Of a DNA stretch of 64,000 bases, positions 48,327 to 61,912 are shown piece after piece; within the stretch, counting starts at the first letter, position 1, and every line of letters begins with the position of its first letter. The DNA is from Olivibacter jilunii (lineage in GTDB: Bacteria > Bacteroidota > Bacteroidia > Sphingobacteriales > Sphingobacteriaceae), in NCBI RefSeq assembly GCF_900607235.1, contig NZ_LR027849.1, forward strand, positions 62,001-126,000. Direction: 5' to 3'. The notes below the pieces were generated by a model, which did no database searches, was not told where the DNA came from, and worked only from the letters and a program-made list of their open reading frames with translations. A program made the position numbers and the translations under genes.

Positions 48327-51300
48327 CTAGGCTGTTACTTCGCATGTAAACGTGACTGCGGGGCCTTCGTTAACACCAGCCTTCACGCTAAACCTGCCGA
48401 TTGCATAGTAGGCATAAACACTGTAGCCTCCATAAAATTTTTCAAAACGTGCTATCCCATTTTGATCGGTTTGTACCATCGTTGGATATGCGCCGGAAGG
48501 ATCTACCTGTACGGCCATACCAGTAGGCTGTTCAAACGGACCGAGGCTTACATATGCATTTGCTATTGGCCGATCATGTTCGTCTGTTACAAGAACAACC
48601 ATTGGTGTAAATTTAGCGGATATAGGACCCCCACCACCCGCCGTACGGGCAAGCTTTTGGTCATTACCACTTATAATGGTGAGTTTCGCGTTTGGCAAAG
48701 GAGGTAGCGGTGGTGTGGGAAGAACTGTTAGTGAATATGTTTGTGCCTGCCCAAAACCAGCAGCGATAATGGTAAAATCACCTTGGTCATAGTAACATAT
48801 GACCGAATTGCCCGACAATTTTTCAAGTCGTGCAAATCCACTGCTATCGGTCAGGATTTTTACTGTCTTCGCTGCGCCACCCGGGTCAATTTGTACCGCC
48901 ATTGATTTTGGAAATTCACCTACAGAAAAAGTTACTTCTACACCTGGCACACCCACTCCTTTATCGTCCCGCACGGCAATGATTAATGGCTGGAAAAAGG
49001 CCTGACCTCCTGGAATGTGTGTCAGATTTGTACGTGGCACTGCTTGGTTATTGCCAGCTACGATACTGAGGCTAGCGGGGTTACCGGCGGCAGGCGTAAT
49101 AATGGGTTCTGAAAGTGCGGACCAAGGGCCGGGTGCCCCTGGATAGGGGAGCGTTAGGTAAACAACGGCCCCTGTCATTTTACTGCCGTAATGGCCCCTC
49201 CAGAACTTGGTGTCTTTGCCACTATGTTCAAAATATACCGAGCGAACGCCCTTTCCATAATCCGTAAATTGATGTGCTATGCGCTCCCATTTGTAGACCC
49301 AATCGGGTGTACTCGGTGCGATAACCTCCCCGCTGTCAAATCTGGCTATAGCTTGATTGTTAGTATCTCTTAGCTCGATATACATGCGATAAATGCCATT
49401 GCAATCGCTTCTGGAAGAAATCCAATCGGCTACTGTAATCAAAGGTGCTTCATCAAGTTGCGCTGCGGTAAAACCATTGGCTATTAGGTCGATGGTTTGC
49501 GCCTTTTTACACCATAGATAAGAAGTAACGAAGTTGTGTTGGCTTGTAGTACCGGGGCAGCTTTTAGCCGGTCCATCTTCAATGGCCCAACCGTTGCCAC
49601 CATTTTCCAGTATGTTCCAACCGCTGAAGTCGGCCGAGGCATCTCCGTTTTGTAAGAGTTGTGGCGGCGCAGGATTGAGCGCTCGGATACGGGCAATGTA
49701 GGCCGTATCTGCCTTAAGGTCGCTCAATAATACCTTTGCCCCTTGTTCATCATATTGAATAGGAGGCTGTGGATTCAATGGCATGCCATTGTTTGGATCA
49801 ACAAGCTGCGCCTCATAATGGGTAGCAGCTAGCCATTGATCTTGGGGGATAATTTTCAGCGTATCTCCCGCAAGGGATAGTAAAGGCGCTTGAGGTGTTT
49901 CAATCGGGTTATAGTGGATCACATCTGAAAGTGTCCAAATACTATCGATGAAATTGCTTGCAGTAGCGTGTGTACGTACTTGGATATCCTTCCCTGCCAC
50001 CGAAGTGTCTAAGGTATAAGAAGCGGTATAACCGATGTTATCTTCTTTTACCATTTGTGTCGCCTCGTTTGAAGGTGTGCCATCTATAACCAGCTGTGCC
50101 CAATAAGCAGTTGCATTTGCTACTTCTTGGCTTAAGGTAGCGCTGAGTTTATTGGCGGTAAGGCTAAGGCTAGCTGGTTCTGTTGCTGCTAGCCTAGCTA
50201 CCGTATTAGGCGCAGGTTGCCAAGCGCTTGGAGCGTAACCCTCTTTTATGGCGCGAGCTTGTACCGTAAAAGTGTTGCCGGTTTCATCAGGTATGGTAAA
50301 GTTTGCTTGGTATTTCGGCGGATCGCTTTCTGCGAGTTGCATGGGTATGATCTCACCCAGGGGTGTAGCATCTGCCAGCAGTTGGGCTTCGTAGCCCGTG
50401 GCCTCTTTGGAAAGTTGCGCCAGCTCCGCCTGAATTTCATTGCCGTCTTTTATTAGGAGTGCTTGCAAGCTAGGTGCGGGTAAATTGATAATAGTTACTG
50501 GATCACTTTCTCCAGGTAAACTGTTGAGTTTGTTAGCATCGCCCAAAATTTGTGCCCAAGCTCGGTAAATTCCATTAGGCAAGGAAGGAAGACCGTCTGC
50601 AGGCCAGCTACAGCTATTGCTTGTTCCGCTAACAGTTCGCCTAGCTAAAACAGTGGGAGTATCCACTTCTTGGACTTCTACAAGGATTTGTACGCTTGGC
50701 TCGGTTTGGGCCCAACTAACGCGCAGTTCTTGCGTGGTTGTGATCTTTGCCCCGCCGGGTCCGTCTTCTTCTGCTGTCGCGGAGATGAGCCAGCTTAACT
50801 GAACCTCTTGCGGTGTGGCTTGCCGCTCGACCATATTACTGCTGGCTGAAAGCCCGCTGTTGATTGTTTGCGCATCAGCAAGGGTGAGCACACGGGCGCT
50901 AAAGGGGCCGATATCGCCATCAAAGAGGTCTGGCAAGATTTCCCAGTGATTTTGATCCGTTGCAAAGGAACTGGTATCTGCCAGCTCTTCGCTGCTGTAT
51001 AGATTTGCCGTGTAACCTTGATTCGGATTGACTTGCTCCCAATCGGTAACAACTTTACCGTCTACAATTGACAGGGTAGGAGCAGAAGGCATGATCGCCC
51101 GATTAATGTTTTCAGGTGAAGAAGTGGGGTTACCGTCTAGTATCTGGGCGTTGCCGCAAGCTTTGACCTGCACGGTGAGCGAAGTTCCGCTTCCTTGTAA
51201 CGAAGTAAGCGAAATATCAGACTGGAGGGTGTTTGGAGCGATGTTGTCTACATAACAAACTGAAGCTTCTTTTTCGTCTACCACCCGTACCGCATAGGTG

Positions 51301-54300
51301 ACAACTCCGTCAACAGCACTCCAGTTGCATTGAATATAGCCGGCTTGTTTATCTAGCATGCTACCGACGGTTTCCGGCGAAGCGAGTTTAGAAAGATTGT
51401 TGCTCGTAGCTGCGGGGGCGTTTATGGTGTTTACACCGTTGCCGATGGCCCACAATATTGCGTTAACATTACCCGCTGCTAAGTTATACGTATCAACTGA
51501 ATAGTTTCTGTCGTCTTTGGGAATACTGTATTGTTGCTTATCGGTGCCTTGTATCACTTCGAGTAGGTAGTGGTCAACACCTGTCTGACTGTCCTGCCAA
51601 CTGGCTTGCAGCGATTGTTGATTGGCGGCGAGGGTGAAGGCGCTTACTGCGTGCAGTTTTTGCATCGTATTTCCGGATTGCACGCTTTGACTCGGAACAA
51701 CCTCTGCGTTGTGCTGTTTGGTGGCTGTTACCTTTGCAGCATAAGTGCCTGGTACCCAATTTTCGGTTGTGGTTGTTATCGGGCTTGTTTGGGCAGGGCT
51801 TTGCCAGCAGGCCATGCCGTCTGCCGTGTTAAATACGGTTATCTCAAAATTTGTAGCTCCATCCTGCGCCCAGCTAATGGCAAGTTTATCATCGTTAGGT
51901 GTATAGCTCAGCTGTACATCATGCGGATCCGCCAGTTTCGGAATAGTGACTGATACCCAATCCGATTTTTTCGAATCACGAGTACTCCTCAAATCTGCAC
52001 GGTAGCTACCACCATTAAATTGAAGGGAAATTGTTTCGCTACCTTGATAGGTATTCATACCGAACTGTTGTATAGTGCCTATCTGCTGCCCATTTGGATC
52101 ATAAAAGGCTAGTTCGTACCCGACGGCATAAGAGGCTCCGTTCCATTGTGCAGTAAGCGTAGTTCCCGCCAAGCTAAGTGGAGGGCTGGCAAAACTTGGT
52201 TTTTCCGGATCGGGATCATTTCCGCCACCACCACCTTTATTGTGCACTAGGTATCCATTTGCGTGGTAACTGTTATTGCCAGTCAGCAGAAAATTGTAAA
52301 GTGGTGTCAGTGGATCAGCCTCAGTACTGTCGATGCTTAATAGCTCCTCCTGTTTACCATTTATAAGAGCGAGTATATCGCCTACCTCCAGCATCCCAAC
52401 TTGCAGCGATGGATTCTCTGCCGCGGTTGCCAAGGGATCAATGGCTTTCCATCCTTCTGTGGTGTAAAAAGGGTGCTCGGCGGTTACGAAATAATCGCCT
52501 TTATTCAGCGCATAGAGTTTACGGTTACCTAAAAGGGGATGGTCGAAACCGATCACCTCGTTTATCTGTCCATCCATTCCTAACAGTTTATCGCCAAGTT
52601 GAACCTGTTCGATGGGCTTGGTAGAACCGTCTATCAGTAGTACCTGCGTGCCTGCAATAAAACAGGTGCTCCCTTTATTATGCGCCAGCAGTTTATTGGC
52701 AAAGTAGGTATTATTGCCGCTTAGCTTAAAATTATATAACGGAGTATGAAAATCGGCCTCAACCGAACGGATCAAGCTGAGCACCAAACGTTGCCCATTA
52801 GCAAGTAGCAGCTTATCACCACCTTCAAGTTTGGTAACGGGCAGATTTGGATTTTCTCTTTTGGTGGCCTCGGGATCGATGGCTTTCCATCCCGTTTCAG
52901 TTAAAAAGGGATGTTCGGCTGTTACGAAAAAGGGGCCATCATTGAAAGCGTACAGCTTTCTTTTACCAAGTAGCGGCCGATCGTAGGCCACTACGGTGTT
53001 AATCTGTCCATCATAGCCCAAGAGCTGATCGCCGATGCCGATCAATTCAATAGGCTTTACACTCCCGTCTGCTAAAATAACTTCGGTACCAGCTGTGAAG
53101 CAAGAGGAGAATATAGCCGCTGCCGCAACTGCACCTGCTGTGATTGCTGCGGCAGCGGCGGCTCCGCCTGCTGCAAGTGCCGCTACGCCGCCCGCCGATG
53201 TTACCGCTGCAGCTCCGGCTGCAATAGCTTCGGCAGTGAGTGCATCTATAAGTCCTTCACATAGCCACTGGGCCGCCAGTTCTGCAGCCTGTTCTACAAA
53301 TAACACAGCGGCTAATTGTGCCCATTGCGCTCCATTATTGACTAAGCTTTTAACGAAAGAGCTTGCTGATTCTTTTAATGCCGCTGCAATATAATTACCC
53401 AAATCATCGAAAGAGGTATTGTCCGGCAACGGAATCCGCACGGTATCGGGAAAGTCAATGGTGCTGACCTGCTGATTGGCTACGAGCACGGAAAATTGCC
53501 CATCCAATACAAAGTATAAGGTGTATTCGCCGCCCTCATCTTCCACAGTATCAAAGCTTGGTGTCATGGTAAACTGGTTGCTGTAGGCAACATCGGCGAC
53601 TAAATCGACAATGGCGCCGCAAACGAAGGTGGGGTCGGTTGCTTTCATTAATTTGGAAACCTCATCAGCTATATCAATAATCTTCTGTATGCTCTCGTAT
53701 AGCTGCGTAAAGGACGGCCAGTTATTGACGACGAAACCTTCGCTTTGACAGTAGGTAAAATCAATCGAAAGGTTGCCGAAAATCGGTACAGCTTCATCTG
53801 CTGTTAATTTTGCACCGATCTTGGTTTCAGTACGACCGTTGGATAAGCTCTTCGAACCAATGCTTATATCTGCTGTACCGAAGGGATATTCAAAGAAATT
53901 GAAACCTGTAGCGAAACCAAAAACAGGTGTTTCTGCTTTGGTGTTCAAGGTTAAGAGAGGTCCGCTGATATATTGTTTATTGCCTTCGTTTGCTTTTTGT
54001 TTACCGGCTAATTCCAATATAAATATAGAGATTGGACCGCTAAGCCCTAGACTTGCTTCCATCCCTATATCCTTTTGTACATTAATACGTAATTGTAAGC
54101 TGATGGTATAGAGAAAAGTTAAATCAATGGTGGCTTCTAAGTTATAGCCGTTTACAAAACCGTTACCCGCAAAATGGGCAGGATCTGCTTGGGCATCATA
54201 ATAATATACGCGCGATGGACTTTGATCGCTATTGGCTTTGAATACAATATCAAAGAAATCAGTAGGCCAAGCTTGACCGTTACCTACCAAGTTTCCGATG

Positions 54301-57300
54301 AGACTGCTGATGGAAAAATCCTGACTAAGGCTAACGGATGCAAGCATAGGATTTCCATTTAATAGGTAAAGGTTGGCCTGGAGGAAAATTGCAGCAAGAA
54401 GTTCGATCCGCCCGGATACTTGTAGTTCCAGTTGTTTTTCCTTCCGTGTTTCTGTTTGAAAATAATATAGTACATCGAGCCCGAGGTCGCGCAGTACAAA
54501 TACCGGTGGCAAGTTCTCTGGAAACAACTGGATCGTGACACTCGTATCGGGCGTGGTGGTTAAGGTGAAATGGGTTTGATCTTTATTTACCAGTAAATTG
54601 CCTATAAAAGCATAAGTTTCTCCAAATACTTGAAAACTAATCGTTCCGTTGAGTTTAAATTCAGTTGACGCGGTTTGTGTGTACTCCAGAAGGACGCCGG
54701 GATCTTCGTTAGCTCCACTGAACTGAACGATGCCGGAAATGATGGAAAACGGAGCGATTACGGCCCGAAAAATAGTTTTTGCTGAACCTTGATTGGGTTC
54801 GGCTTGGGTTGAGATAAAAGCATAGAGCGTCACGTCCAGGCCACTTGTGCTATCTGCATCTAGTTGTGTAAATACGGCAAAAAGTGGCCCGGTAAAGAGC
54901 AGTTGCGCGTAAAGATGGACTCCTTTTTCTAAGGTGTCGGTTGGTAAGTTACCCTGTTTTATCGGATTTTGAACGGTACCCGGTTTGTTGTTGATGCTTA
55001 GTATTTGGTCAACCTGCTGAACCAGATCTGCTACAGACGGCAGGGTATAGCTTGTGATGGCGATACTGGCATTTCTTACAAGTAAAATGTTATCAATGGG
55101 TGCAAGCGCACTGAAAAGACTGGAAAATTTAAAATTTTCTGCCAAAGCGAAGGCGAAAAGATAACCACGTTCATCGCCATCTGCTGTTTTCTGCGCAAGT
55201 AGTATGGCATCGCCGAAATTGGCGATGGCACCGTATAGGAAAAATTGGTTTTGTGTTTGGTTAAAATATACAACGGCTTGGGCGTAATTGACTGCCTGCA
55301 TGTCATTGGGCGTAAGTACTGACCAGCTGGTTTGGTCAGTATCCGGTTGATCTGCCACTAATCCATCGCCGAAAGTGCTTATCTGTAAGGAAGCAATCTC
55401 ATTTACGGTTAGGGTACCGGTAAAAATGGTGTCTATGCCCGCAGAGCCAAGTTGCAAAGTAAGCAGCACTTGAAGGCTGTTCATATCCAAGAGCGCACGC
55501 AAATTAGCTTTATAGAAGTTTTTATTGGCGGGATCTTCGGGTTCGAGGCTTTTTAAGGCCACTTCGGCATCTAAACCAAACATCTTTAGTTCCAATCCTA
55601 AAAACGGTACGGTCCAATCGGCCGTCTGGTTGTTCGCAGGCGGCGTAGAGGGCATAACGATAATTGACCCGCTGGCTTGAAAGTTACCGGTTTCGGGGGT
55701 CATACGACCTTCTAACGTTCTAATGGTAAGGGTAGGCAAGCCAATCGAATTTGGAATTACAAATAGCTCGTTGAGGTGTATTGCCTGCAAAAATGCATCG
55801 AAGTTAAAACGCTCTTCGCTCAGTAAGCTAGCGGTAAATACCCAATGCGGTGCCTCTGAACTGTAATCTGCCGTAAAAACAATGGGTGCGCTAGATACAA
55901 AAAGCGTTACGCCGAGATGCATTGTAAGTGTGCTATGATTGGGATCTTCCGGCACTACTTGTACACTTGATTCAATACGGGCATTATCGAACACTAGAAG
56001 ATTACCTATTGCATGCCATGGAGCACTGTTAACAATCGTGAAGTCGATCTTTTCAACTATTTCTGTGGTGATATTGAAGCTAATGTTTAACGCGGTGAGA
56101 TCAAAACCTTTCCCAAAGGGCATAAACGTTTCTGGAATGTATTCGACCACCACAGCAGGCAGCATCCAATTGGCAAGATCGCTTAGTCCGGGTAGATGGA
56201 TCGTGTCTTTTACCGCTAATGTAAATTGCCAGTTTTTCGCTAAATCATCCCGATACGCCTGTATCCATATAGCGTTGTTGAAAATATGGACAAAGGCATT
56301 GAAGGTGCCGGTACTGTTATACCCTTTGTCTTCTTGACTTATATTCAATGAGGCATATACGCTAGAGAAACTGAGGAAATCAGGCAGTACCACCCAGTCT
56401 TGTTTGCCCTTCAATGCAAATTGAAAATTTTTAATGTTAGCCGGTTGGGGCATAAATTGGATGCGCAACTGCGTTAAGCTAAAATTGCCAAAAGTATTGA
56501 AGCTGGCGGGTAACCCATCGGAAGATCCGCCAATTAATTTTAATAATTCGCCTATACCTGGAAACTCGATCGTGCTACCGGGTTTTAGGCTAATGGTCCA
56601 ACCCGTTTCACCTGCAGGAATGGGCATGCTTATCTCCATGTCTGCCACCGTACCTATCTTCATGAAGCCGTGTAGTAAGCCGGTGATGGTATAGTTAGCC
56701 GCTACATCTACGAACATATTAACGTCCCAACCATATACTTCGAAATCGGCTAAAATTTTCCAGCTTCCGATTTGAGAGAGGTCGAAGCTGACAGAAGACA
56801 GTGCCGGCGTAAAGGGATTGAAGGCAATTGCAATTTCATTGATGGCAATATTGAGCGAGCTATCTACCAAGCCTTCGGGGAGCGGTGCCAAAATATCTTG
56901 TTCCGAATGTCCTCCTTGCGGCCATATAAAGTTTGCTAGGTCAGTTAAGGTTGGTAGCTGCACATTGTCTGCGCTAATGCGGAGTGTCCAATTGCCTTCC
57001 AGCGGAATTTGCATAACAACTTTCAGATTGGTAACACTGCCAATGGCAATTTCGCCGCTCACGAAGGCCTGCAGAATAAAAGGCGCTGGATTATCTTCTG
57101 AAGGCACGAACGTGGTGCTCAGGCCGAATTGAAAACCGCCCACTGCAATATTGGGGCTAGTCAATATCTGCCAGTACCGGGCTGTGCCATCTTCATTAGG
57201 CAAGAAAGTAATGGCTGCAAAAAATTGGGCCCATAGTTGTGTACTGGGATCAAATTGGATGTAGTTACCGCCCACATGTAGTTGCAGCAAACTGGTGAGA

Positions 57301-58874
57301 GAAGGCGGGAAGATACCGGATAGCGCATTCCCTCCCGCCAACCGAATGGCATCTTCCATCGTGGCCAGCTGAATCCCTTCTGTTGTGTCGTTACTTAAAT
57401 ACCAGTTGGTATTGGCTGCATTCGGAAGGGTTAATTTGGCCGGATAGTTGAAGGATGCTGATAGGGTATACATACCGGATACAAAAGCGGTATTCACCAC
57501 CTGATTTGCTGCGGCCACCTCGCTGCTTAGCGAAAGGATAGGAGATACCAAGGTGGCTGCTTCTAAACCTATTGGTGCAATAGATAAGGTGCCGGCCAAT
57601 TCGCTGTTCATGCGCAATTGGTAACCATCACTCTTTTGTGTTACCTTACCGCGTAAGGCAAGAGCATCTTCTGTCGTGTATATATTGCGAAGTACCGCTA
57701 ATGAGCCCTCGTTCAGTGATGCAACCCAATACAGGTTAAGCCCGGGATCGAGCGCACCTATCGGCGCCACGTTCTGTTGCGCATAGGAGCTGGCAATCAT
57801 GGCTTTTTCTGACAGTATTAGTCCATCAAAGAGTTCGCTCTGTGTTTGCGGGAAACTAGTGGATGGCAACCAATCGTCCGGAAGTGGACTTATGTGTAAG
57901 GTGAAATCGAGCCGCTGATTATCGGTCTCTACCACTTGAATCCGGATTGGCTGATTTGTTAGGTTATAAATTTGGGTATCGCCGTTTATGGTAAGCTGAT
58001 CTCTCGTCTGTTCTAGTGATGCATTGCTAAGTTGCAGCGTCTGAGCAAATACCGCCGCATCAAACAATGGAGCTACGACATCGCCGAAATCTGTGTCGAA
58101 TATAGTAAGTTGACCGTCCTTCAACCGTTCATTCAACGTAATGTAAAGTTGATCTAGGAGGTCGAGCGTTGTAGGCACTTCTACAGCTACGGGATAGGTG
58201 AAATTTTCTTTTTGGTACGTTCCTTTAAGGTAAGCTAAGTTGAGCGCTTGCTCGTTACCCGATTGAAGGAGTAGAGTGGTAGTGGTTAGCTGCAAATTAA
58301 TCGGTTGCTCTAAATGCGCTTGTAGGCTTACTTGAGTAGCTGCCTCGCCTGTCTGGATCATCCCTCGCAAGGCTACCGTTTGTATGGCTGTGTTTAATTG
58401 TTGCAGACTGGCCAAAGCTGCGGTGGTCGTGCTGTTTGAGATGAAATTTAAACCAGCTTCCAAATTAGCTGAAGGAAGTTCAATGGCGTGTGCGTAGGAA
58501 CAGCCAATAAGCCAGGTTTGCTGTAAATCGAGATTGTCAAAGTACGTGTTCTGCAAATCTGGAAAGCTATCGGGAAAACTCCATCCCGTTAAGGCTTCCT
58601 GATGCTGAATACTAAATTGGAGAGTTTCATTTTTTTCGATAACAGTGAGTTGCGCTTGTAAGGAGCTTGACAAGTTCCAAAGCGCCGCTTGTCCGGTGAC
58701 CAGCAAAGGGCTTCCTTCGGGACTTATGCTAGTAGCCGTAAAATTTAGAGTATCAGTATTTAATGTAGACAAAAAGATCTGGCTGTTAGCGCCAAAATCT
58801 GCTGCATATATAGCAAGCTTTCCGTCGGAAAGGCGTTCCTGTAAGGTAGTTCTAAAAGTGTCTAAAAGTCCCAT
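48327..58874 (-). CDS. Giant 3515-residue protein: beta-repeat half, twin Hint domains, FN3-like array, FBA domain, Ig-like tail
   Basis: One uninterrupted frame from ATG 58874. Residues 1-1725 are beta-rich with two related N-terminal repeats (LQERLSDGKLAIYAADFG at 11, LNERLKDGQLTIFDTDFG at 247) and then units of about 130-160 residues marked by LPTLTDLANFIWP (640), FPGIGELLKLIGG (771) and LPGLSDLANWMLP (894). Residues 1873-1924 are Ala/Gly-rich and hydrophobic. Hint domain 1 spans Cys1925-Asn2066 and Hint 2 Cys2071-Asn2212, each with TAEH and C-terminal HN. Residues 2226-3068 form an FN3-like array, 3073-3240 match the F-box-associated (FBA) domain, and two Ig-like domains occupy 3266-3386 and 3396-3513. 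There is no classical signal peptide. It is last in an operon with an exported metallo-beta-lactamase-fold protein. A self-processing, surface or secreted glycan-binding role is inference. Confidence 0.9.
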   Translation of the reverse strand: MGLLDTFRTTLQERLSDGKLAIYAADFGANSQIFLSTLNTDTLNFTATSISPEGSPLLVTGQAALWNLSSSLQAQLTVIEKNETLQFSIQHQEALTGWSFPDSFPDLQNTYFDNLDLQQTWLIGCSYAHAIELPSANLEAGLNFISNSTTTAALASLQQLNTAIQTVALRGMIQTGEAATQVSLQAHLEQPINLQLTTTTLLLQSGNEQALNLAYLKGTYQKENFTYPVAVEVPTTLDLLDQLYITLNERLKDGQLTIFDTDFGDVVAPLFDAAVFAQTLQLSNASLEQTRDQLTINGDTQIYNLTNQPIRIQVVETDNQRLDFTLHISPLPDDWLPSTSFPQTQSELFDGLILSEKAMIASSYAQQNVAPIGALDPGLNLYWVASLNEGSLAVLRNIYTTEDALALRGKVTQKSDGYQLRMNSELAGTLSIAPIGLEAATLVSPILSLSSEVAAANQVVNTAFVSGMYTLSASFNYPAKLTLPNAANTNWYLSNDTTEGIQLATMEDAIRLAGGNALSGIFPPSLTSLLQLHVGGNYIQFDPSTQLWAQFFAAITFLPNEDGTARYWQILTSPNIAVGGFQFGLSTTFVPSEDNPAPFILQAFVSGEIAIGSVTNLKVVMQIPLEGNWTLRISADNVQLPTLTDLANFIWPQGGHSEQDILAPLPEGLVDSSLNIAINEIAIAFNPFTPALSSVSFDLSQIGSWKILADFEVYGWDVNMFVDVAANYTITGLLHGFMKIGTVADMEISMPIPAGETGWTISLKPGSTIEFPGIGELLKLIGGSSDGLPASFNTFGNFSLTQLRIQFMPQPANIKNFQFALKGKQDWVVLPDFLSFSSVYASLNISQEDKGYNSTGTFNAFVHIFNNAIWIQAYRDDLAKNWQFTLAVKDTIHLPGLSDLANWMLPAVVVEYIPETFMPFGKGFDLTALNISFNITTEIVEKIDFTIVNSAPWHAIGNLLVFDNARIESSVQVVPEDPNHSTLTMHLGVTLFVSSAPIVFTADYSSEAPHWVFTASLLSEERFNFDAFLQAIHLNELFVIPNSIGLPTLTIRTLEGRMTPETGNFQASGSIIVMPSTPPANNQTADWTVPFLGLELKMFGLDAEVALKSLEPEDPANKNFYKANLRALLDMNSLQVLLTLQLGSAGIDTIFTGTLTVNEIASLQISTFGDGLVADQPDTDQTSWSVLTPNDMQAVNYAQAVVYFNQTQNQFFLYGAIANFGDAILLAQKTADGDERGYLFAFALAENFKFSSLFSALAPIDNILLVRNASIAITSYTLPSVADLVQQVDQILSINNKPGTVQNPIKQGNLPTDTLEKGVHLYAQLLFTGPLFAVFTQLDADSTSGLDVTLYAFISTQAEPNQGSAKTIFRAVIAPFSIISGIVQFSGANEDPGVLLEYTQTASTEFKLNGTISFQVFGETYAFIGNLLVNKDQTHFTLTTTPDTSVTIQLFPENLPPVFVLRDLGLDVLYYFQTETRKEKQLELQVSGRIELLAAIFLQANLYLLNGNPMLASVSLSQDFSISSLIGNLVGNGQAWPTDFFDIVFKANSDQSPSRVYYYDAQADPAHFAGNGFVNGYNLEATIDLTFLYTISLQLRINVQKDIGMEASLGLSGPISIFILELAGKQKANEGNKQYISGPLLTLNTKAETPVFGFATGFNFFEYPFGTADISIGSKSLSNGRTETKIGAKLTADEAVPIFGNLSIDFTYCQSEGFVVNNWPSFTQLYESIQKIIDIADEVSKLMKATDPTFVCGAIVDLVADVAYSNQFTMTPSFDTVEDEGGEYTLYFVLDGQFSVLVANQQVSTIDFPDTVRIPLPDNTSFDDLGNYIAAALKESASSFVKSLVNNGAQWAQLAAVLFVEQAAELAAQWLCEGLIDALTAEAIAAGAAAVTSAGGVAALAAGGAAAAAAITAGAVAAAAIFSSCFTAGTEVILADGSVKPIELIGIGDQLLGYDGQINTVVAYDRPLLGKRKLYAFNDGPFFVTAEHPFLTETGWKAIDPEATKRENPNLPVTKLEGGDKLLLANGQRLVLSLIRSVEADFHTPLYNFKLSGNNTYFANKLLAHNKGSTCFIAGTQVLLIDGSTKPIEQVQLGDKLLGMDGQINEVIGFDHPLLGNRKLYALNKGDYFVTAEHPFYTTEGWKAIDPLATAAENPSLQVGMLEVGDILALINGKQEELLSIDSTEADPLTPLYNFLLTGNNSYHANGYLVHNKGGGGGNDPDPEKPSFASPPLSLAGTTLTAQWNGASYAVGYELAFYDPNGQQIGTIQQFGMNTYQGSETISLQFNGGSYRADLRSTRDSKKSDWVSVTIPKLADPHDVQLSYTPNDDKLAISWAQDGATNFEITVFNTADGMACWQSPAQTSPITTTTENWVPGTYAAKVTATKQHNAEVVPSQSVQSGNTMQKLHAVSAFTLAANQQSLQASWQDSQTGVDHYLLEVIQGTDKQQYSIPKDDRNYSVDTYNLAAGNVNAILWAIGNGVNTINAPAATSNNLSKLASPETVGSMLDKQAGYIQCNWSAVDGVVTYAVRVVDEKEASVCYVDNIAPNTLQSDISLTSLQGSGTSLTVQVKACGNAQILDGNPTSSPENINRAIMPSAPTLSIVDGKVVTDWEQVNPNQGYTANLYSSEELADTSSFATDQNHWEILPDLFDGDIGPFSARVLTLADAQTINSGLSASSNMVERQATPQEVQLSWLISATAEEDGPGGAKITTTQELRVSWAQTEPSVQILVEVQEVDTPTVLARRTVSGTSNSCSWPADGLPSLPNGIYRAWAQILGDANKLNSLPGESDPVTIINLPAPSLQALLIKDGNEIQAELAQLSKEATGYEAQLLADATPLGEIIPMQLAESDPPKYQANFTIPDETGNTFTVQARAIKEGYAPSAWQPAPNTVARLAATEPASLSLTANKLSATLSQEVANATAYWAQLVIDGTPSNEATQMVKEDNIGYTASYTLDTSVAGKDIQVRTHATASNFIDSIWTLSDVIHYNPIETPQAPLLSLAGDTLKIIPQDQWLAATHYEAQLVDPNNGMPLNPQPPIQYDEQGAKVLLSDLKADTAYIARIRALNPAPPQLLQNGDASADFSGWNILENGGNGWAIEDGPAKSCPGTTSQHNFVTSYLWCKKAQTIDLIANGFTAAQLDEAPLITVADWISSRSDCNGIYRMYIELRDTNNQAIARFDSGEVIAPSTPDWVYKWERIAHQFTDYGKGVRSVYFEHSGKDTKFWRGHYGSKMTGAVVYLTLPYPGAPGPWSALSEPIITPAAGNPASLSIVAGNNQAVPRTNLTHIPGGQAFFQPLIIAVRDDKGVGVPGVEVTFSVGEFPKSMAVQIDPGGAAKTVKILTDSSGFARLEKLSGNSVICYYDQGDFTIIAAGFGQAQTYSLTVLPTPPLPPLPNAKLTIISGNDQKLARTAGGGGPISAKFTPMVVLVTDEHDRPIANAYVSLGPFEQPTGMAVQVDPSGAYPTMVQTDQNGIARFEKFYGGYSVYAYYAIGRFSVKAGVNEGPAVTFTCEVTA

Positions 58875-58892
58875 GGTTTATAATTGAGATGA

Positions 58893-60164
58893 CTACAGAT
58901 AAGGTACGAGTTGACTGCCCGGATTTTGGTGACTGATAAATGCTTGAACGGTCTGCAAAAACTGTTGCCTGTCTATAGCTAACAAAGGTTCAGTATGGAA
59001 GGTAGTATCAAGCCATTGTTCGTTTCCCGAGATGATATAATTGTATTGTTTAGTTAACACTACGCGGAACCCATCGAAAACTTTTAAGTGATAAAGCTTG
59101 GTATCGGCATTATAGATGGTAGCACAGGCATAAGTGTCGTAGCGAAGTGATAAGCGAAATTTTTCAATCGATAGATTCTTAATGTAATATCCATATCGGC
59201 TACTTAATTCACCGTTTAAAGCGTTCAAATCTGGCCTACCATATATCAATTGTGCTTCTTCCCATTCTTCCTGCAGGTCGTCATCTAACACTGCGTAATA
59301 GGTTGTTTGCCCATCATTCCAAACCGCAAGGAATGTTTTAGAGCGTATGCTTCTATTAGCTTTTTCCGCGAAACTCTCATAACTAATTAAAAAATAAGAG
59401 ATGCCATTTATGGTTTGTGTGTTTTTTATTTGAGCGTTGTTGGGAATAATCCCCTGATCTGCAAGATATGTCTTAATAAAGGGAGCCTGGAACGGAACAA
59501 TTGCTGGAATAGCCGTTCCCCTGAGCGTCGATAAATCAAGTGTGTTGAAATAAGTTAGATTGTTGAAGTCTACCGGCAGCCCTTGATAGCTCAATGCGGT
59601 CTCTAAGGTCATGAAGGCGCAGAGATTATCATTCCCTTTACGCGTAATGCCTGCTGGATTATAGCGTGTGTATCCTCCGTAAAGTTGCGGATACTTGTAA
59701 AGCTGCGGTAAAGTTAGTTGTGGATCGTCTTGTAGGGCCCACAAGGGATACTCCGGGAACCATAAATTTTTGAGAGGATTATCGTATTGCTTGGGAATAT
59801 TCATCCATTTTAAAAGCTCGGGTGCATGCGATTGCGAATTGAATTGATTAGTGAAAAGGAAGGGGCTTGTCGGATCTTTCAGTTGAAAGGGCGTTTGCAA
59901 ACCGTTGATCAAAAAATCGCTTACTTGAATAAAACAGATCTGGTCGTAAGCTTGGTCTCGCGCCAAAGGCGATAAAGAGGGATCAAAAAAGGCTTTGATG
60001 GTGTAGGTAAGGTCGTCTAAACGAGTAAATCCGACTACCAACGGGTTGGAGGAGCCGCCAAAGGTCTGCGCGGTTTGGCCAATCCGGATCGCTGAGGTCC
60101 CTTGACCCTCGTATACACCGGTAACTACTTTGTATCCATTTGCGGTACTTAACGTTAATGCCAT
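58893..60164 (-). CDS. Uncharacterised 423-residue protein of the giant-protein operon
   Basis: A clean ATG-started frame sits 18 bp after the metallo-beta-lactamase gene and 18 bp before the giant gene. No signal peptide or membrane helix is visible. The N-terminal part (MALTLSTANGYKVVTGVYEG, VVGFTRLDDLTYTIKAFFD) looks like a beta-sandwich. The middle has an aromatic, Pro-rich segment (KNLWFPEYPLWALQDDPQLT) and a Cys within NLCAFMTLETALSYQGL. The rest is mixed alpha/beta (SYFLISYESFAEKANRS). I do not recognise a family. The fixed spacing to the giant gene points to a functional partner, for example a chaperone, adaptor or enzyme acting on it. Confidence 0.75.
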   Translation of the reverse strand: MALTLSTANGYKVVTGVYEGQGTSAIRIGQTAQTFGGSSNPLVVGFTRLDDLTYTIKAFFDPSLSPLARDQAYDQICFIQVSDFLINGLQTPFQLKDPTSPFLFTNQFNSQSHAPELLKWMNIPKQYDNPLKNLWFPEYPLWALQDDPQLTLPQLYKYPQLYGGYTRYNPAGITRKGNDNLCAFMTLETALSYQGLPVDFNNLTYFNTLDLSTLRGTAIPAIVPFQAPFIKTYLADQGIIPNNAQIKNTQTINGISYFLISYESFAEKANRSIRSKTFLAVWNDGQTTYYAVLDDDLQEEWEEAQLIYGRPDLNALNGELSSRYGYYIKNLSIEKFRLSLRYDTYACATIYNADTKLYHLKVFDGFRVVLTKQYNYIISGNEQWLDTTFHTEPLLAIDRQQFLQTVQAFISHQNPGSQLVPYL

Positions 60165-60182
60165 GATAATTGGTGTTACTGA

Positions 60183-61604
60183 TTATTTAAAATAGACGAG
60201 GTCTGCATTGTTGGTTTTCACTTCGTGGCACTCCATCTTAATATTCCCCTCGGCATTTGGGGTGCGCATTACGTGACTTACCATAGTGCCCGGTAGTTCG
60301 CCGTTCCAGAAAACGGTAAACCTGCTTTTTTGCTCAATATCCTCGTCATTAACAATCACCACGATATCGCCTGCAATAACGCCATTGCTTTTGGCGGGAT
60401 TTCCTATATTGACGCGTGCTGAGTCGGTAAAGCCATCCATTAAAGAAGTAAGAAAATAGCGTTGAAGGGAGTTGTCAACTGAATCAGGTGTGATACCTGT
60501 CCAGCTAGAGATATCCCATTTAGGGTAAATATGCGTGTCCAACGCTTCGATTACTTCTTCATTGGGATGTCCATGTTTATCACCACAGGAGATAAGACCG
60601 GTTATCGGTTTAATTAAGCTTAGAAAATACTCACTGGTGCTGATGGTACTGCCATGATGACTCAGCTTAAAGGAACAGACATGTCCCTTGGTAACATCAT
60701 TGCCGTTATGGACCCATTTGAAGTTCGATTGATCGTTAGCCTTTAACGCTTCTGCTAATGGGGATTCCATATCGATATAACCCCCACTTTTCCAACCACC
60801 AAGGTCACCTGCGCTGTAGAAACGAAAATTACCATATTGCAAGATCCAAGCTAAGCCCAGATCGTTCTGATTGCTTCCTGACCGTGGTGCCGGTTTTGTG
60901 GTGGTATCACCGAGAACGTAGTTGTTGGTGGCTACACACAGTAGTTGGATCTGTTTTTTGCCCGTACCGAATAAATTGAGTGTTGTGGCTAAATTGGTGG
61001 TGTTTCGTGTCATAGGCGCTTTGGTTACCGCTTTTACGTACTTGCCATAAACACTGGGTGATTTATTGGAGGTGGTTGAGCTTGGGAGCGGCTTTACCAG
61101 CCCCCGATCCCAGGAGCCTTTATTTGAATTGAAGTTTACAAGGACACCGGGTAAACCGCCTATATGATCCTGATGGTAATGTGAAGCAATCATATAGTTC
61201 AGCGAGTCGATCCCCATTTTGGTCATATAGAAGTTGATTTTGTTCGCTTGCTTACTGCCGTCGCCTCCGTCAATTAACACGGCATTAACGACAGTACCAT
61301 TCAGCGAAACGCTGCTGTCTACCGCTAATTGAAGCATATCGGTACGATCGGCTGGGACTGTTTGCCCGGCAGCTATAATCGCCTGCCTCACTTTGGCTGT
61401 GTCTCTAACGACTACGAGTGCGGCGTCACCGTGCCCCACACTCATCTGGTGGATCTCCAGCGTTTGAGCGGTTGTTTTTGCCAGATTGAGTATAGTGAGA
61501 AGCAAAGAAAGCATCATAACCTTTCCTTGGTTGGGAAAAGATGGATTGAGCATGCATCTACAGAAAACCTGCATACAAAGGCGTAGATTAATTTTGATTG
61601 TCAT
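60183..61604 (-). CDS. Exported metallo-beta-lactamase-fold protein, ComEC-like
   Basis: I start at the ATG at 61604 (473 residues). The longer frame to 61745 runs through non-coding-looking sequence. A signal segment (MMLSLLLTILNLAKTTAQ) precedes the metal-binding fold. Key motifs are SVGHGDAALVV, the HxHxDH site in ASHYHQDHIGG, SAGDLGG and LSHHGS. The GHGDA and HHGS pattern is that of the ComEC/Rec2 C-terminal domain and related secreted hydrolases. A phosphodiesterase or nuclease is therefore likelier than a beta-lactamase, although substrate is unknown. First gene of the operon with the 423-residue protein and the giant. It could supply a processing or degradative activity in the periplasm or outside the cell. 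Confidence 0.88.
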   Translation of the reverse strand: MTIKINLRLCMQVFCRCMLNPSFPNQGKVMMLSLLLTILNLAKTTAQTLEIHQMSVGHGDAALVVVRDTAKVRQAIIAAGQTVPADRTDMLQLAVDSSVSLNGTVVNAVLIDGGDGSKQANKINFYMTKMGIDSLNYMIASHYHQDHIGGLPGVLVNFNSNKGSWDRGLVKPLPSSTTSNKSPSVYGKYVKAVTKAPMTRNTTNLATTLNLFGTGKKQIQLLCVATNNYVLGDTTTKPAPRSGSNQNDLGLAWILQYGNFRFYSAGDLGGWKSGGYIDMESPLAEALKANDQSNFKWVHNGNDVTKGHVCSFKLSHHGSTISTSEYFLSLIKPITGLISCGDKHGHPNEEVIEALDTHIYPKWDISSWTGITPDSVDNSLQRYFLTSLMDGFTDSARVNIGNPAKSNGVIAGDIVVIVNDEDIEQKSRFTVFWNGELPGTMVSHVMRTPNAEGNIKMECHEVKTNNADLVYFK

Positions 61605-61699
61605 AATTTGAGAAAATATGTGTAATAATATGAAAAAATGTGTGAAAAACACTGATTTACTTCTATTATTAGCGATGGTAATTACATTAAGCTTAAAGC

Positions 61700-61912
61700 G
61701 TGAGACCTGCAGAAATTGCATTAGCGTGGCTACCGGCACATACATTTTTTATTGTGCCTATTCCCAGTACATCGAAATTGCTCCGCTTGCAGGAAAACCT
61801 TGGAGTTGTTGAGTTTTGCTTGATACACGAGGAGCTAAGCAATATCAATAAGGCATTAGCAGTATTAAAACTACAGACGGTACAGATACAGCAAGCAAGT
61901 GGCTCGACGTAA
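61700..61912 (+). pseudogene. C-terminal remnant of an aldo/keto reductase gene
   Basis: The plus-strand frame reads PAEIALAWLPAHTFFIVPIP, then STSKLLRLQENLGVVEFCLI, then HEELSNINKALAVLK. This is the conserved end of aldo/keto reductases (TPAQIALAWLLA..., IVPIPGTTKLxRLEENLGA, LTxEDLxEI). Everything upstream of the fragment (about 250 residues, with the catalytic Tyr) is missing, and the preceding bases are AT-rich and non-coding. Only the last 70 or so codons survive, read against the flanking minus-strand genes. The loss implies a deletion or insertion event exactly at the upstream boundary of the giant-protein operon. Confidence 0.8.

Follow-up and report, generated by a model that had tools for sequence, protein, structure and literature searches.

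In type A bacterial intein-like (BIL) domains, a thioester is formed at the N terminus and the terminal Asn is cyclized; cleavage is their main outcome, and now and then the freed amine attacks the thioester and ligation results (PMC4031507; also PMC5874633). The BIL domain of C. thermocellum (2lwy) belongs to this type and has the Hint fold, Cys1, the block B His, a C-terminal His-Asn pair, and insertion in a variable region (PMC5874633), together with a +1 residue that is not Cys, Ser, or Thr. In reviews, BIL domains are said to have no nucleophile at +1 and for the most part to cleave. The BIL2 domain of BUBL1 from Tetrahymena thermophila (6tmm, 6y75) has been reported to bond an acyl group to the side chain of a Lys in the domain that follows, forming an isopeptide (PMC8616854, PMC9200820), and Zn is reported to activate it. 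BUBL1 contains several BIL domains that alternate with ubiquitin-like domains; the +1 residue of BIL2 is Met, and its acceptor Lys lies in the next ubiquitin-like domain. The same fold, Cys1, block B His, and His-Asn end are found in class 1 inteins (e.g. gp41-1, 6qaz), and in the PT-HINT domains of polymorphic-toxin pretoxins a Hint placed in a large protein releases the C-terminal part. No literature on tandem Hint domains or on a class with Lys at +1 was found among open-access papers, which is weak evidence of absence.

Two tandem Hint domains in a giant protein

The window, i.e. the whole stretch of 64,000 nucleotides from Olivibacter jilunii that was analyzed, contains on its minus strand an open reading frame for a giant protein of 3515 amino acids (379 kDa; positions 48327-58874) that carries two Hint domains. 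Hint 1 (residues 1925-2066, minus strand, 52677-53102) and Hint 2 (residues 2071-2212, minus strand, 52239-52664) each span 142 residues from Cys1 to Asn, contain TAEH, and end in His-Asn followed by Lys-Gly. Between them lies the linker Lys-Gly-Ser-Thr (residues 2067-2070, minus strand, 52665-52676), in which Lys2067 is the +1 residue of Hint 1 and Thr2070 the -1 residue of Hint 2, and Hint 2 is followed by its own +1 residue, Lys2213 (minus strand, 52236-52238), and then by GGGGG. This agrees with a first-pass annotation, made from the sequence, of two 142-residue Hints with TAEH and a four-residue spacing; the range it gave, 52239-53102, proved to match the outer limits of the pair exactly, to which the minus strand can now be added, and its estimate by eye of about 60% identity compares with a computed 63% (90/142). 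Its view that standard splicing is unlikely is also borne out, as both domains have Lys at +1 and neither has Cys, Ser, or Thr there, so canonical class 1 splicing is not expected.

At the DNA level the two copies are 60% identical, with 39% identity at third codon positions, a dN of about 0.34-0.37, and a dS that is either saturated or about 2.3. The low third-position identity and saturated dS indicate that the pair is old, and both copies look constrained because dN is about 0.35 against a saturated dS. Duplication of the pair during assembly is ruled out by the identities of 63% in protein and 39% at third positions. Two Hom_end_hint plus Hint matches above the gathering score were found by Pfam in the giant protein, and an AlphaFold2 model of the pair, for which an alignment of 18 tandem pairs was the input, consists of two Hint folds with a mean pLDDT of 87 and values of 85-97 over most of both domains. 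Across tandem pairs 18 alignment columns are invariant, and in each unit these include Cys1, the block B His, and the His-Asn end. Asn occupies the block F Asp and block F His positions in both copies.

In the VIA fold comparison, where most of the rows listed align to the first domain and some to the second, the best match was 6y75, the BIL2 domain of Tetrahymena BUBL1 (Z 20.6, rmsd 2.0, 140 aligned). Next came the C. thermocellum BIL domain 2lwy (Z 17.1), tied within 1 Z with the best inteins (16.9), and Hedgehog lies behind the inteins at Z 14. On the best reading, the Hint domains of the giant are predicted to be catalytically intact type A BIL domains that would self-cleave the giant or excise themselves. 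Like the C. thermocellum domain, they have the Hint fold, the N-terminal Cys, the block B His, the C-terminal His-Asn, and a +1 residue other than Cys, Ser, or Thr. Insertion in non-conserved regions is seen in phage DUF4815 proteins, in which the relatives of these Hints lie in variable linkers; the giant itself is an orphan. What sets the family of the giant's Hints apart from type A BIL domains is a near-invariant Lys at +1 and a repeated tandem arrangement.

A type B BIL domain, which would have no intein-like C-terminal motif, is excluded by the His-Asn end, and a canonical intein is ruled out by the +1 Lys of both domains and the Asn in place of the block F Asp; the giant's Hints further differ from class 1 inteins in having no conserved host site and in their tandem copies. 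They resemble BUBL1, the closest solved fold, in that several such domains occur in one protein, but they stand side by side with no ubiquitin-like domains alternating between them, and they have Lys rather than Met at +1. The likeness to PT-HINT lies in the placement of a Hint in a large protein from which a C-terminal part would be released. The lower-scoring bacterial Hints that were fetched, many of which look like PT-HINT, differ from those of the giant in occurring one to an ORF and in having chiefly Cys, Ala, or Ser at +1.

An accessory three-gene locus

The giant gene is the last of three that probably form one operon (48327-61745, minus strand) with 18-bp gaps. The first gene is probably that of a metallo-beta-lactamase-fold protein (60183-61745, minus strand), and a 423-aa orphan protein (58893-60164, minus strand) is encoded 18 bp from the giant, with which it is probably co-transcribed. 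The N-terminal part of the giant (residues 1-1924, 208 kDa; 53103-58874, minus strand), described as beta-rich in the first-pass annotation, is an orphan in the searches made and has no close relative in 295 genomes of the class. Toward its end lies an Ala/Gly-rich stretch of 40 uncharged residues (residues 1883-1922; 53109-53228, minus strand), the most hydrophobic of the giant, which stops two residues upstream of Hint 1. The C-terminal part (residues 2213-3515, 139 kDa; 48330-52238, minus strand) contains FN3-like and Ig-like repeats recognized by reading only and an FBA domain (residues 3072-3238; 49161-49661, minus strand; Pfam E 4.6e-46). A strong FBA (F-box associated region) domain is present in a bacterial giant protein, and it is the sole curated-level match in the C-terminal part, where no toxin family was found by Pfam, although a toxin of an unknown kind may still be there. 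Nor did Pfam find a ubiquitin-like domain in the giant, although a diverged one could be missed by sequence profiles.

None of the three operon genes was found in the relatives searched, same-genus genomes included. Only weak matches to the Hint region were obtained in 150 relatives, from which the same giant was absent, and no close relative of the giant was found in the plasmids or viral contigs searched. In a genome of the same genus (G004), the genes that flank the locus on its two sides are retained, namely those for AcrB and an outer-membrane factor (97% and 90%) and a glycosidase-like gene (82%), with different genes between them; the locus is therefore accessory.

A mostly phage clade of Hint domains marked by Lys at +1

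Scans of genome and viral collections showed that close relatives of the giant's Hints come mostly from uncultivated phage contigs. Bacteria contribute few members: a Gracilibacteria MAG in which one ORF holds two Hints (L009), an Alphaproteobacteria MAG (L010), and Aeromonas caviae (L123). Related Hints are also carried by Providencia phage PSTNGR1 and Achromobacter phage JWF. In a maximum likelihood tree of 87 domains, whose bootstrap was not fully settled, the giant's copies fall in a 55-row, mostly phage group with support of 96/99; the two copies are mutual nearest rows, joined by a fork that is itself unsupported. By this grouping and by their Lys at +1, the giant's domains belong to a +1 Lys phage Hint clade, which is a variant within the BIL kind; the fold is not new. 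A Hint profile run against 395 genomes of the phylum gave two other, weaker single-Hint matches. Two loci, L119 (G244) from the phylum scan and L008 (G059) from the scan of relatives, are RHS-like by reading, and no functional name for the Hints came from PHROGs.

When the clade set was cut to 80% identity, Cys1 and the block B His were present in 55/55 domains and the terminal His and Asn each in 54/55, the mean column conservation being 0.54. The block F Asp position is Asn in 52 of 55 clade members, and at the block F His position Asn is found in 17 and His in 24 of the 55. Lys occupies +1 in 50 of the 55 domains of the 80%-identity set, in 49 of the 55 clade rows of the tree, and in 66 of 72 distinct domains with scores of 100 bits or more, but in only 3 of 73 lower-scoring Hints, which most often have Cys there. 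Because 12 of the 32 remaining tree rows, outside the clade, also have Lys, this residue is a strong but non-exclusive mark of the clade.

The Lys is sharply delimited. In flanks other than array junctions it is found at +1 in 38 of 42 cases (entropy 0.64 bit), whereas +2 and +3 have entropies of 2.85 and 3.52 bit; the -1 residue is Ser, Cys, Gly, or Thr in 38 of 43 flanks, array junctions again left out. Two phage proteins terminate exactly at HNK (L113, 3932-4915; L114, 5470-6453) and others a few residues later, and other phage Hint proteins start with MGGS right before Cys1. Conserved next to variable +2 and +3 residues and kept at protein ends, the Lys therefore behaves like a piece of the module rather than of the host sequence. 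In phage DUF4815/VrlC proteins, the module stops exactly at the boundary HNK/DPLAQ. Hint-less homologs run through the same place in the cultured phages HTVC008M, S-CAM22, S-B43, P-TIM40, P-TIM68, and phiM7, and the residues ahead of DP in Hint-less homologs are GT, WY, RI, DD, or NP, with no Lys there; the Lys thus travels with the module.

Hint arrays in structural proteins of phages

Two or more full Hints were found in 14 of 46 clade ORFs and in 0 of 70 lower-scoring ORFs; the former count is biased upwards because part of the sample was found by a pattern built for HNK/CF-type junctions, but L009, L101, L103, L105, and L106-L108 came from scans not asking for tandem copies. Per phage ORF there are seven Hints in L142, five in L140, and four, three, or two in several others; L134 is an array of four units and L141 one of two. 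The first-pass annotation had regarded tandem Hints as unusual and had suggested a search for other proteins with paired domains. The arrangement is not isolated: it recurs in the clade and in phage proteins, with up to seven copies per protein.

Most arrays lie in DUF4815/VrlC-type proteins, several of them right before a conserved DPLAQ(T/S)F block. Among related DUF4815 proteins the copy number ranges from zero to five, with the array of seven in another phage protein. Most junctions read HNK/CF, so that a single Lys is the whole linker and serves both as +1 of one unit and as -1 of the next. Unit 1 and later units form separate tree groups across different phages, which suggests arrays of long standing rather than passing expansions. 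The final units of L140 and L142 are degenerate and have no His-Asn end. That the arrays are artefacts is unlikely, as units within an array share 36-93% identity and more than one metagenome, in fact several different ones, yielded arrays; single phage contigs may have errors, and L101 ends in a frameshift.

Several further features can be seen in these proteins. In L095, L101, L103, L104, L105, and L143, a run of two to four Cys leads into the first Hint and includes its Cys1. The second Hint of L105 (3583-6675) adjoins an intramolecular chaperone of the Peptidase_S74 type (SDARLKRN; weak Pfam match), and chaperones of this type are known for self-cleavage. The phage ORF L202 (3-5429) carries three Hints, two of them with Cys at +1, and is possibly a splicing-competent counterpart of the Lys arrays.

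Predicted outcomes for the giant protein

By analogy with the chemistry in the BIL literature, an acyl-thioester would be formed at each Cys1 (Ser1924/Cys1925 and Thr2070/Cys2071) and each terminal Asn would cyclize (Asn2066/Lys2067 and Asn2212/Lys2213). The 31-kDa Hint region would thereby be freed, whole or as pieces of 15.6 and 15.5 kDa, and the 208-kDa N part separated from the 139-kDa C part; pieces of 1924 and 1303 residues, as had been predicted, follow from the sequence. A fraction would probably be re-ligated through attack of the +1 Lys, freed or exposed, on the neighboring thioester, a role as acyl acceptor, by peptide or isopeptide, that we infer. Taken as a whole, double cleavage at the Cys1 and Asn sites with partial re-ligation is probably the best explanation. 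The earlier proposal of cleavage or attachment to a nucleophile named the right class of outcome (PMC4031507) but missed that the +1 Lys is the signature of a phage-associated, often tandem clade and maybe itself the nucleophile. Both domains are predicted from their conserved residues to be active; the Asn at the block F Asp and His positions counts against activity, although clade members commonly have Asn at these positions too. An N fragment released by cleavage would have a possible membrane segment, the Ala/Gly stretch, at its end. The giant is without a detected relative and so offers no comparison of halves working joined with halves working apart.

The Hints may do no more than cut, giving a two-chain protein or two separate proteins in which the +1 Lys merely favors Asn cyclization. 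This is quite possible, if a little short of an even chance: it is the known behavior of type A BIL domains (PMC4031507, PMC5874633), and the hydrophobic segment closing the N fragment could be a membrane anchor. One Hint would be enough to cut, however, so this view does not account for arrays of three to seven units that keep the Lys, and it explains the strict conservation of the Lys only in part. It is also possible, though somewhat unlikely, that the +1 Lys is a dedicated acyl acceptor, with the N-terminal acyl group passing from Cys1 to its side chain or to its freed alpha-amine. Each Hint would then excise itself and leave one Lys at the seam, zero-linker arrays would yield N-part-(K)n-C-part, and the giant would become ...SS-KGST-KGGGGG.... 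A Lys nearly as conserved as the catalytic residues and belonging to the module is consistent with such ligation, as are its retention as the final protein residue in L113 and L114, its place as the entire linker at most array junctions, the continuity of N and C parts in Hint-less phage homologs, and the Lys isopeptides reported for the closest structural homolog (PMC8616854). Against it stand the mainly cleaving type A BIL domains (PMC4031507), the 5 of 55 clade members without an aligned Lys at +1, and the Met at +1 of BIL2 itself; because of this Met, the analogy with BIL2 is loose, its isopeptide chemistry being independent of a +1 Lys. Conservation argues that the +1 Lys matters for the outcome, which could mean positioning or Asn cyclization instead of acyl transfer. 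For the giant, cleavage is slightly likelier, with Lys-dependent ligation the most interesting alternative.

A giant that remains in one piece, its Hints being inert spacers or inteins in decay, would fit the Asn at both block F positions of both copies and the degenerate last units of the L140 and L142 arrays, but this reading is made improbable by the retention of Cys1, the block B His, and the terminal His-Asn in two diverged copies and across the clade, and by a dN that is low against saturated dS. Selfish spread of a mini-module (C...HNK), which would enter tolerant linkers of large proteins, multiply there, and do the host protein no good apart from removing itself again, would be compatible with any chemistry. 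The module does occupy variable linkers of unrelated proteins (DUF4815, other phage proteins, and the orphan bacterial giant), and its copy number varies widely among phage proteins. Such spread is nevertheless improbable, as the 142-residue unit has no endonuclease and the separate groups of first and later units across phages suggest long-term retention with positional identity. A broader proposal, for now unlikely, is that a distinct Hint class uses the conserved +1 Lys as acyl acceptor and that its tandem domains excise themselves and leave Lys, in peptide or isopeptide linkage, at the seam. In phages, arrays with as many as seven units would in this way build a short Lys-rich or branched bridge into a structural protein, with no need for enzymes or ATP; the giant would be the two-unit version.

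An almost fixed +1 Lys that moves with the module, and stays even as the final residue of a protein, points to a chemical role that is not described in the open-access literature searched. Phage DUF4815/VrlC-like or other proteins, together with the giant as a case of two, form a graded natural series of 0, 1, 2, 3, 4, 5, and 7 Hint copies, which makes the purpose of the domains testable. A Hint that accepts Lys would be useful for protein ligation. The Lys-marked tandem clade suggests a mode of self-cleavage or self-ligation of proteins that has not been described.
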